Below, one piece after another: positions 4,198-6,009 of a stretch of DNA of 13,535 nt (its first letter is position 1; each line of letters starts with the position of its first letter). The DNA comes from Dysgonamonadaceae bacterium (GTDB taxonomy: Bacteria; Bacteroidota; Bacteroidia; Bacteroidales; Azobacteroidaceae). The stretch is from NCBI GenBank assembly GCA_031282925.1, contig JAITCT010000150.1, forward strand, positions 1 to 13,535. The letters run 5' to 3'. Under the pieces are notes generated by a model that was not told where the DNA came from, ran no database searches, and saw only the letters and a program-made list of their open reading frames with translations. Both the position numbers and the translations under genes were made by a program.

Positions 4198-4238
4198 TCA
4201 AAAAATTTTTATGTTTTTATTCTTAAATTAATATTGTG

Positions 4239-4246
4239 TATTTTTG
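4239..4246 (+). promoter_or_regulatory. Predicted -7 element for the HSDR_N gene
   Basis: TATTTTTG matches TAnnTTTG exactly and lies 32 bp before the ATG at 4278. It covers the only longer alternative start (GTG at 4236), which supports the 4278 start. No convincing -33 TTTG is seen at the usual spacing. Confidence 0.5.
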
Positions 4247-4254
4247 CAAAGGTA
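4247..4254 (-). promoter_or_regulatory. Predicted -7 element for amn-holA
   Basis: On the minus strand this reads TACCTTTG, an exact TAnnTTTG match, directly abutting the plus-strand -7 motif. The transcript would start near 4241 and have a leader of about 107 nt containing the 4151-4197 hairpin. The -33 element is not evident. Confidence 0.5.
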
Positions 4255-4277
4255 AACAAAAAAGAAGATACGGGAAA

Positions 4278-4742
4278 ATGTTGGAATTAAATCTTCCGCA
4301 GGCGGAATTAAATATCAAGGAAGAAAACGGAAAAGCGTATGTTTTCGACCGTTTGAGGAAACAATTCGTGCGTTTGACACCGGAAGAATATGTTCGTCAA
4401 AGTTTTGTTTCTTATCTGATTACATACAAAAATTATCCCCAATCCCGCATGGCAAACGAAATCGGCATCGAATTGGGGAATGTGAAAAAACGCTGCGACA
4501 CGGTTCTTTACGATGAATATCTGCATCCTTTGATGATTATCGAATTCAAAGCGCCGTCAATACTTATCAAACAAAATGCGTTCGACCAGATAACACGCTA
4601 TAATATGCGCTTGAATGTTCCGTGGCTCATTGTGAGCAACGGCGTCAGACATTATTGCTGCCGGGTTGATTATGAAAAAAAGGAGTACTTTTTCCTCAAA
4701 GACATACCGGAATATGAAAAACTAAAAAAAGTTACGCACTAA
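4278..4742 (+). CDS. Orphan type I restriction HsdR N-terminal domain (HSDR_N) protein
   Basis: A 154-residue protein that resembles only the N-terminal nuclease domain of type I restriction HsdR subunits. It shows a PD-(D/E)xK arrangement: E61 in a helix, D74 in KKRCDTVLYD, E89-F90-K91 in MIIEFKAP, and Q104 in the following FDQITRYN helix. There is no helicase motor, methyltransferase or specificity subunit nearby, so it is not part of a restriction-modification system here. From memory, Bacteroidetes genomes commonly carry this stand-alone protein close to holA and amn, suggesting a housekeeping nucleic-acid role, but its function is unknown. The ATG at 4278 was chosen because the upstream extension runs through the promoter. 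Its stop overlaps the convergent ApgM-family gene by 11 bp. Confidence 0.85.
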   Translation: MLELNLPQAELNIKEENGKAYVFDRLRKQFVRLTPEEYVRQSFVSYLITYKNYPQSRMANEIGIELGNVKKRCDTVLYDEYLHPLMIIEFKAPSILIKQNAFDQITRYNMRLNVPWLIVSNGVRHYCCRVDYEKKEYFFLKDIPEYEKLKKVTH

Positions 4743-6009
4743 AGAAATTTCCGATAAACTGCTCCCCTTTCAAAATCCCATATTTCCCCTTTTCGACCGA
4801 GAACTCGTTATATTCGGTAACTTCATCAGGCATTTCCCCCGGCTTGTAAATCACAAACGGTACGGGTGAACCGGTATGGGTCTTGAGGCGGCAAGGCGTG
4901 GGATGATCGGGCAAAAGCGCAATTGTTACCGGTTCGTTCCAATTATCAATGGTTTCGAGAATGGGCTTCAGCAGGCGTTTGTCGAGATATTCGATGGTTT
5001 TTACTTTCAGGAAAGCGTCTCCTTCGTGGCCGGCTTCGTCGCTTGCTTCGACATGGACATATACAAAATCGGTTTCCTGCAAGGCTTTTAGCGCTGCTTG
5101 CGCTTTCCCTTCGTAATTCGTGTCATATAGTCCGGTGACTCCCGGCACGTCTATGCTTTCCAGTCCGGCATAGATACCGATTCCTTTGATTAAATCCACT
5201 GCCGAAATGACCGCTCCCGTCCGTACCGGATATGTTTCCGAAAGCGGTTTCATCTGCGGCTTATACCCCGGCGACCAGGGCCAGATACTGTTGGCAGGGT
5301 CTTTTCCCTCCGCTTTCCGTTTCAGGTTAACAGGATGGTTTTCGAGTATTTCCTGCGAACGGATAATCAAATCGTTCAGGTAATCAGCAGTTTCCTGCGC
5401 TTCGGGGATTGCCGCTTTTATCAGCGCTTTCCGGAATTCGGTTCCGGGTACATCGTGCGGCGGCGTACAAATCAAGTGTTTGTTGCCGCCTTTCAGTTTC
5501 AAAATATGCCGGTAGGAAACGCCTGGAAAAATCCCTAAATCTCCTAAAGGGGACTTTGCCGTAGCAGAATGTTCAATCTCTCTGCTCCCAACTCCCCCTT
5601 CAGGGGGTAGGGGGTAAGGTAATTTCTCATTAAGATAATGAATCAATATTCCGGCTTCTTCGCTCGAAATGTGGCCTGCCGAATGGTTTTTGATTTTCCC
5701 GTTTTCGACACAGATTAAGTTACAGCGCATGACCATTTCGCCGGGAAGAATATCAATGCCCATGCTGGCGGCTTCCAATGCGCCGCGTCCTTCCAGAACC
5801 TTGACGGGATTGTAACCCAAAACCGATAAATTGGCAACTTCGCTTCCCGGATGCATTCCTTCGGGAATGGTTCGCAGCAAACCGGTATTCCCTTTTCGCG
5901 CCAACAAATCCATTGTCGGGGTGGAGGCGTATTGCAAAGGCGTCAGATTCCCCAAAGATTCGATGGGTTCGTCGGCCATCCCGTCTCCTAAAATAATGAT
6001 ATACTTCAT
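4732..6009 (-). CDS. apgM: ApgM-family phosphoglycerate mutase (possibly homoserine kinase), with repeat-derived insert
   Basis: A member of the alkaline phosphatase superfamily that would interconvert 2- and 3-phosphoglycerate. Bacteroidetes proteins of this exact type have also been proposed as homoserine kinases for threonine synthesis, and no thr genes are present here to decide. Metal and catalytic residues are in place: GDGMAD (8-13), the nucleophile segment HPGSEVAN with S56, SDEAGHEGD (323-331), LPDHPTP (366-372) and THTG (377-380). NLKRKAEGKDPANSIWPWSPG (228-248) is a family signature. Residues 131-160 are an anomalous Pro/Gly-rich insert (PLPPEGG...KSPLGDLG) between NEKL and FPGVSYRH, where relatives have roughly seven residues. 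It is encoded by a palindromic repeat at 5530-5619, which explains the 425-residue length against about 400. The reading frame is intact. It sits 63 bp downstream of nfeD on the same strand. Confidence 0.88.
   Translation of the reverse strand: MKYIIILGDGMADEPIESLGNLTPLQYASTPTMDLLARKGNTGLLRTIPEGMHPGSEVANLSVLGYNPVKVLEGRGALEAASMGIDILPGEMVMRCNLICVENGKIKNHSAGHISSEEAGILIHYLNEKLPYPLPPEGGVGSREIEHSATAKSPLGDLGIFPGVSYRHILKLKGGNKHLICTPPHDVPGTEFRKALIKAAIPEAQETADYLNDLIIRSQEILENHPVNLKRKAEGKDPANSIWPWSPGYKPQMKPLSETYPVRTGAVISAVDLIKGIGIYAGLESIDVPGVTGLYDTNYEGKAQAALKALQETDFVYVHVEASDEAGHEGDAFLKVKTIEYLDKRLLKPILETIDNWNEPVTIALLPDHPTPCRLKTHTGSPVPFVIYKPGEMPDEVTEYNEFSVEKGKYGILKGEQFIGNFFSA
5530..5619. repeat. Palindromic repeat inserted in frame inside the ApgM-family gene
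   Basis: The segment has two GC-rich arms, each itself a small palindrome: CTCCTAAAGGGGA near 5541-5553 and CCCCCTTCAGGGGG at 5593-5606. Together the arms form a larger imperfect inverted repeat (5533-5553 against 5592-5614). An inner GCAGA/TCTGC pair (5564-5568, 5581-5585) could extend the fold. The composition differs sharply from the surrounding gene. Elements of the CCCCTAAATC...AAAGGGGACTTT type are, from memory, abundant in Bacteroidetes intergenic regions. The length is a multiple of three and no stop is introduced in the gene's frame. Confidence 0.8.

Follow-up and report, generated by a model that had tools for sequence, protein, structure and literature searches.

How a palindromic repeat can come to lie inside the coding sequence of a conserved enzyme, and what carried it there, is the question raised by a stretch of 13,535 nucleotides from a Dysgonamonadaceae bacterium of the Bacteroidota (genome G000), which we call the window. 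A sequence-only reading of this DNA had proposed that such a repeat was domesticated in frame within an ApgM-family gene. The product of this gene scored 545 bits against the cofactor-independent phosphoglycerate mutase model NF003242 (cut-off 426) and also exceeded the cut-offs of TIGR02535 ('proposed homoserine kinase') and TIGR00306 (apgM); its nearest solved folds are PH0037 (2zkt) and a Thermoplasma enzyme (3kd8). The gene is convergent with a small stand-alone gene for a type I restriction R-protein N-terminal domain (window positions 4236-4742, forward strand; PF13588, 133.8 bits), with an overlap of 11 bases at the gene end.

Alignment confirmed that a Pro/Gly-rich stretch separates the conserved blocks NEKL and FPGVSYRH, where native relatives have six or seven residues, and that the insertion kept the reading frame open (Table 1). 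The distance from HSAGHIS to YRH is 60 residues with the insert versus 37 in native relatives, a net gain of 23 residues; because the element measures ~84 bp, ~15 bp of the native GN(D/E)RLQ loop must have been lost. The core of this copy has undergone length changes, and its own frame remains open. Both GC-rich arms are palindromes in themselves, as the first reading had noticed, arm 1 (CTCCTAAAGGGG) being an imperfect one, and an inverted repeat search paired positions 5543-5552 with 5595-5604 (10 nt, 90% complementary). The RNA fold of positions 5522-5629, reverse strand, had an energy of -38.1 kcal/mol (z = -2.74 against 200 shuffles). As single-stranded DNA the copy folded unexceptionally (z = -1.27; 21 of 200 shuffles were equally good), and an Rfam search of 351 bases matched no RNA family up to an E-value of 1. 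An AlphaFold2 model (mean pLDDT 81.9, 30 sequences) placed the insert in a loop that joins a helix to a strand; residues 133-153 had pLDDT below 50, and the insert is modelled as disordered.

Table 1. Features of the apgM-family gene and its insert (positions in the window).
Feature	Positions	Strand	Basis
apgM-family gene, 425 aa, carries the insert	4732..6009	-	NF003242, TIGR02535 and TIGR00306 above cut-offs; PF10143 and PF01676
Conserved block FPGVSYRH past the insert; strand start in the model	5506..5529	-	Alignment; strand 156-161
Palindromic repeat element, about 82-85 bp, protein residues about 132-159	5533..5614		BLASTN match limits in own and sister genomes; alignment of 43 copies
Arm 1, CTCCTAAAGGGG, family consensus CCCCTAAAGGGG	5541..5552		Sequence; consensus of 43 copies
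Arm 2, CCCCCTTCAGGGGG	5593..5606		Sequence; inverted repeat with arm 1
Conserved block preceding the insert, ends NEKL; helix end in the model	5620..5667	-	Alignment; helix 116-129

BLASTN with the element located six more places in its own genome (E-values 3e-18, 3e-16, 2e-15, 4e-11, 5e-9 and 1e-8), together with weaker partial matches, in an assembly that is itself incomplete (2.04 Mb, 349 contigs, 74% complete). Among 38 genomes of the genus, 15 matched the element at an E-value of 0.01 or better; copy counts per genome are lower bounds, as ~23 candidates were scored in each (there were 94 candidates in G004 and 51 in G019). No phage or plasmid match was found at blastn sensitivity. We aligned 43 copies: the one in the window, those of five other loci of the same genome, and those sampled in G004 and G019 whose match covered most of the length. 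Their consensus (TACCCCTAAATCCCCTAAAGGGGACTTTGCCGCAGCA...CCCAACTCCCCCTTCAGGGGGCTGGGGGGTA) has two self-palindromic, GC-rich arms that face each other across a variable core of ~35 bp, and it agrees with the Bacteroidetes repeat type CCCCTAAATC / GGGGACTTT to which the insert had been assigned. Many copies carry a TA before the C run and another after the G run; this TA may belong to the element or reflect a preferred target.

The apgM loop itself could be compared across related genomes. At the DNA level it was readable by pattern match in 20 of 30 fetched loci, representing 17 genomes: three hold the full-length element (G000, G019 and G004), two a shorter GC-rich loop (G016 and G001), and 12 a loop of native length. 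Among 29 homologous proteins, chosen from the 120 matches listed out of 7999, 11 had longer altered loops, two had shorter ones, and 16 were of native length; filled sites also occur in several metagenomic proteins. The insertion model is supported because other copies of the element exist and because not all close relatives carry a homologous 30-residue loop, the two tests that had been set in advance. The three full copies are 70-75% identical to one another, equal to their identity with unrelated copies, and pairs of them have 2-3 derived bases in common (median for unrelated copies, 2-3). On these sequences, a single old insertion and several independent ones would fit the counts equally well. 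At both apgM and carA, empty and filled sites differ by lost bases of the native loop, and target duplication is therefore unreadable.

Copies of the repeat also lie in other genes. Of 38 copies from G004 and G019, taken by DNA match, five (L171, L186, L192, L193 and L198) sit in a reading frame that stays open for 40 or more residues in each direction; L171 encodes CarA and L186 release factor 3 (PrfC), both above their NCBIfam cut-offs with the repeat read through. The isoleucyl-tRNA synthetase (IleRS) of G004 (L208, located by protein search) likewise reads through a repeat, in a partial frame scoring 420 against a cut-off of 621, and a diverged copy is read through in DPP5 of G000 (L009; 904 bits, cut-off 900). 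The suggestion that intergenic repeats have a general route into proteins of this phylum is thus borne out within the genus, by CarA, PrfC, IleRS and DPP5. A further full copy in the genome of the window (L002, G000:C88) lies in frame between a short MKAIFT start and a hydrophobic signal stretch, in what we take to be a secreted 5'-nucleotidase-like gene whose reading frame is opened by the one repeat copy; another gene of this genome, presumably methylmalonyl-CoA mutase-like, holds half a copy. The IleRS genes of G029 (L105) and G004 (L208) each carry two or more PG-rich inserts of the palindromic kind, at differing positions, and aminoacyl-tRNA synthetases look like favoured hosts for palindromic inserts.

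The carA loop was readable in 22 of 27 loci, the other five lying outside the pattern, and 16 of the 22 loops were ordinary. That of G004 holds the apgM-family repeat. The loops of G000, G022 and G019 hold unrelated sequences that fold strongly relative to shuffles (z = -8.6, -5.8 and -4.3), and the remaining two are those of G020 and of G058, whose insert has an ambiguous fold z of -1.30; L223 was left out of the DNA folds, its segment ending within the element. That related genomes hold unrelated palindromes in one loop suggests that tolerant sites have captured inserts again and again. The inserts of G022 (L226) and G058 (L230) are rich in GGTACAGGG / GGTGCACGG, unlike the CCCC..GGGG palindromes, and over most of their length they matched none of the fetched flank repeats of DUF559 or Y1 genes. 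Many genomes of the genus have carA within ORFs of about 1300-1520 aa (L223-L248), at L171 the start of the large subunit shares its frame, and a few genomes have a separate small CarA subunit; the two proteins, CarA and CarB, appear to be fused in the genus.

In the genome of the window, a gene for a DUF559 protein lies between two copies of the apgM-family repeat. DUF559 was matched in 14 of the 38 genomes, and arms of the same repeat family stand on both sides of all five short-frame DUF559 genes of the genus (G000, G002, G004, G023 and G058). The domain is common in the phylum (163 of 395 Bacteroidota genomes drawn, E-value 1e-10 or better). We scored repeats, direct or inverted, between the two 400-bp flanks of each locus, with a threshold of 40: 28 of 40 DUF559 loci (10 of the genus and the 30 best-scoring of the phylum draw) reached it, versus none of 12 apgM loci, which were taken as a negative control from the 30 fetched. 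For a second set, 20 DUF559 loci were chosen among the rows listed, on contigs of sufficient length and before any flank was inspected, and each was compared with 52-99 shifted windows along its stretch of 11-19 kb. The threshold was reached at 16 of the 20, and 16 of the 20 had no control window that scored equally high. L150, L168 and L169 failed both measures and L164 the score only; at L166 two control windows exceeded the locus's own score because another repeat lies nearby.

The flanking repeats vary in sequence by lineage, and most of those examined are GC-rich hairpins. A search with one protein yielded six further DUF559 loci, five of which have CCCC..GGGG arms on both sides: the cassette occurs in Candidatus Symbiothrix sp. 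Hs463_bin62 (L210), in Bacteroidia bacterium MS502-39 and MS502-62 (L211 and L214) and in a Lentimicrobiaceae bin (L213), and L212 has arms on both sides, yet its flanks are unlike each other (score 23). L215 lacks such arms and has an inverted flank repeat (score 62). Dispersal of the flank repeats was assessed in three distant genomes. A search of G448 with its DUF559-flanking repeat gave 46 matches, including the DUF559 locus, and there are seven gene-less places with two facing arms about 85-115 bp apart, besides single arms; in the other two (G323 and G269) the flank repeats were found only at the DUF559 locus.

Comparisons between genomes indicate that the cassette changes place. G376 and G234, of one genus, have DUF559 genes that are 93% identical over 367 nt at different loci (L134 and L135), and within 1.5 kb on their flanks the matches are confined to the repeats. 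The genes of G004 and G002 (76% over 327 nt) also occupy different loci; G352 and G376 have a DUF559 locus in common. The occurrence of one cassette at different loci means that it moves or is moved.

The DUF559 profile matches 3hrl, an 'Endonuclease-Like Protein' (E-value 8e-35), and 3r3p, a 'Mobile intron protein' (2e-7), and the PADLOC model 'HEase' gave weak matches in two of four cases (5e-4 and 8e-4); we assume the fold to be of the PD-(D/E)XK class, Vsr-like. Of 160 domains, 157 retain the ExDGxxH motif, an indication that nuclease function is under selection. The domain also enters large proteins. Among the 150 places listed from the phylum draw, 38 were in ORFs of at least 600 aa and 11 in ORFs of 300-599 aa; NCBIfam names around the nuclease include IleRS (L105), ValRS (L106) and LeuRS (L109), and palindrome-DUF559 units lie in frame within LeuRS, ValRS, IleRS and MetH. 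The other MetH, HsdR and LeuRS host labels of flank-scored loci are assumed from motifs that we recognized.

A protein search with the L106 domain, restricted to proteins of about 490-1550 aa, gave 605 chimeras among 755 candidates. The 120 chimeras listed include ValRS, IleRS, MetRS, MetH, MurC, PurL and a sugar-nucleotide epimerase (names from the source or Pfam), and their precomputed Pfam accessions, as we understand these, contained no self-splicing domain. The linkers around the domain are rich in Pro and Gly, at 17.6% and 22.5% versus 11.7% in whole proteins (n = 141). In a tree of 91 DUF559 domains, built on 109 columns and weakly resolved, 63 chimeric rows formed one clade (99/99), and the HsdR chimeras stood apart (100/99). 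Host labels were clustered on this tree (22 changes versus 57.1 in shuffles), with the rows of MurC and PurL placed among those of ValRS, as host switches would give. Occurrence at the same site (four LeuRS loci, five MetH loci) fits homing but also descent.

From these comparisons of sequence, we consider it likely that the apgM segment belongs to a dispersed family of non-autonomous mobile repeats of REPIN-like build, and that this copy landed in a permissive surface loop and is translated through. Selection would remove out-of-frame and harmful insertions, so that tolerant loops such as those of apgM and carA accumulate insert after insert. What moves the repeat is a separate matter. By analogy with homing endonucleases, DUF559 would cut at or near palindromes, and repair or recombination would then copy the repeat, with or without the DUF559 gene; in-frame events in protein loops would survive. 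The repeat would be a gene-less derivative of a palindrome-DUF559-palindrome unit, a proposal to which we give about an even chance. Counting against DUF559 as the mover are genomes that have repeats without it: G019 and G018 (at least 24 and 8 scored copies) matched neither DUF559 nor Y1_Tnp, and G026 and G061 have repeat copies and Y1 with no DUF559 match. Incomplete assemblies (80-96%), loss of the mover after spread, or a third mover could account for these genomes. The confinement of the flank repeats to the DUF559 locus in G323 and G269, two of the three distant genomes, also speaks against DUF559 as the mover.

The two genomes that lack both genes also fit the alternative that survives best, namely that the repeat has no dedicated mobilizer now and spreads by template switching, gene conversion and recombination between palindromes, with DUF559 using the repeats as safe landing sites. 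DUF559 units often lie between long direct repeat copies (e.g., L110, L144 and L146), as if inserted beside an existing one. However, the element has defined ends across the 43 aligned copies, G448 has the same arms with and without the DUF559 gene, and the pairing of DUF559 with palindromes holds phylum-wide though the palindromes differ. We regard the alternative as possible, at rather less than an even chance.

That the repeat is a conventional REP/REPIN mobilized by a Y1 (HUH) transposase, a RAYT of the Bacteroidota subclass, is unlikely. Y1_Tnp matched in 17 of the 38 genomes, and flanking repeats stood at 19 of 26 Y1 loci (of 30; L090, L097, L102 and L103 were left out of the score), as expected of REPtrons and as a positive control for the flank score. 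A Bacteroidetes Y1 subclass, 2.6, is reported to have atypical flanking structures (PMC6006769). Against this, an arm of the apgM-repeat family was present at only one of 30 Y1 loci (L097), the 16 Y1 flank repeats examined were all of other sequence, and G023, G058, G019 and G018 bear the repeat without any Y1 match. On the arm count and the differing flank sequences we rejected Y1/RAYT as the cognate partner.

A true domestication, in which the loop has taken on a function in regulation, binding or stability, appears less probable still. The insert has stayed open in three genomes despite sequence decay; on the other side, the loop varies widely in length and sequence among relatives, remnants are common, the model gives the insert low pLDDT, and other palindromes take a similar role in carA. 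Nor is the repeat shaped for coding, a possibility we rejected since the 43 copies have fewer open frames than mononucleotide shuffles (mean 1.44 of 6 versus 2.00). Since the repeat is not built to code and the loop is modelled as disordered, 'tolerated' describes the insert better than 'domesticated', if the latter is taken to mean selection for a function. Finally, loops of such length vary in many proteins and all genomes compared are fragmented, but a drifted low-complexity Pro/Gly loop or an assembly artefact is very improbable given DNA copies in non-homologous places (E-values down to 3e-18) and apgM sites filled in three genomes and several metagenomic proteins, and a chance low-complexity loop was rejected on the nucleotide copies elsewhere in the same genome.

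A mobile repeat translated through in a tolerant loop has relatives among known systems, and in-frame palindromic repeats are themselves already known, as Rickettsia palindromic elements (RPEs) and intragenic REPs. The likeness to RPEs that had been noticed holds: a palindromic repeat stands in frame in unrelated genes (here apgM, carA, prfC, ileS and dpp5) and adds a peptide. The present copies differ in phylum, being in Bacteroidota, and, as judged from the tags, in sequence. According to one study, at least some RPE-decorated proteins are expressed, the intragenic CGTC repeats of R. conorii are equated with RPE-4 and RPE-6, and REPs of the GTAG and CGTC super-families occur in ORFs, whole or as dimers, coding for 20-30 residues (PMC3733652). 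In these super-families the tag adjoins a palindrome of 20-40 bp; neither CGTC nor GTAG stands beside either arm in the 43-copy consensus, which begins TACCCCTAAATCCCC and ends GGGGGGTA. In the same study, recB of two Xanthomonas species is reported to hold different REPs at about the same site (PMC3733652), which resembles the carA loop here. The GTAG and CGTC families are tied to Y1 transposases or to none, whereas the apgM-family repeat goes with a DUF559 nuclease.

In architecture the repeat comes closest to the REPIN-RAYT system, where one element is made of two inverted palindromic units, as in the arm-core-arm order of the 43 copies and the facing arms at seven G448 places, and a single gene, in one or few copies, is flanked by the same units. 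The flanked gene here encodes DUF559 and not an HUH/Y1 transposase (one family arm among 30 Y1 loci), and the DUF559 unit enters proteins in frame along with its gene. Bacteroidetes Y1 subclasses with flanking structures have been described (PMC6006769). A MITE would have an autonomous relative that shares its ends and carries a coding gene; in this respect, the G448 arms occur with and without DUF559 and the G000 DUF559 gene lies between repeat copies, DUF559 being at most a putative transposase. The Vsr-like (EDxHD) homing endonuclease 3r3p, which the profile matched at 2e-7, is likewise mobile and found within conserved genes; it differs in that DUF559 has no intron or intein around it and, in the 120 chimeras listed, is retained within the host protein as one of its domains. 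By the same match DUF559 resembles the homing-family nuclease expected of homing endonuclease genes; cutting and copying are proposed by analogy.

Bacteroidota may host an undescribed class of mobile element, a reading that we hold to be evenly balanced: a small DUF559 (Vsr-like) gene framed by palindromic repeats, with gene-less derivatives, that spreads in frame into loops of conserved proteins without splicing. The gene-less form (in ApgM, CarA and PrfC) and the nuclease form (in LeuRS, ValRS, IleRS, MetH, MurC, PurL and HsdR) would each be part of working proteins, and DUF559 would serve these repeats as RAYT serves REPINs, with a non-HUH chemistry. In the titles and abstracts of the open-access papers searched, we found neither a pairing of DUF559 with palindromes nor the present repeat.

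Intragenic palindromic repeats are known from Rickettsia and several REP-rich Proteobacteria; for most families their route of entry and their mover have yet to be worked out. In the present case the apgM loop can be compared as filled, decayed and empty across sister genomes, and there is a candidate mover with testable activity, a small nuclease adjoining its own palindromes. Should DUF559 prove to be the mover, a role would be assigned to a 'domain of unknown function' that is very common; in that case, the nuclease domains in aminoacyl-tRNA synthetases and methionine synthase of Bacteroidota would be in-frame passengers and not purposeful fusions.
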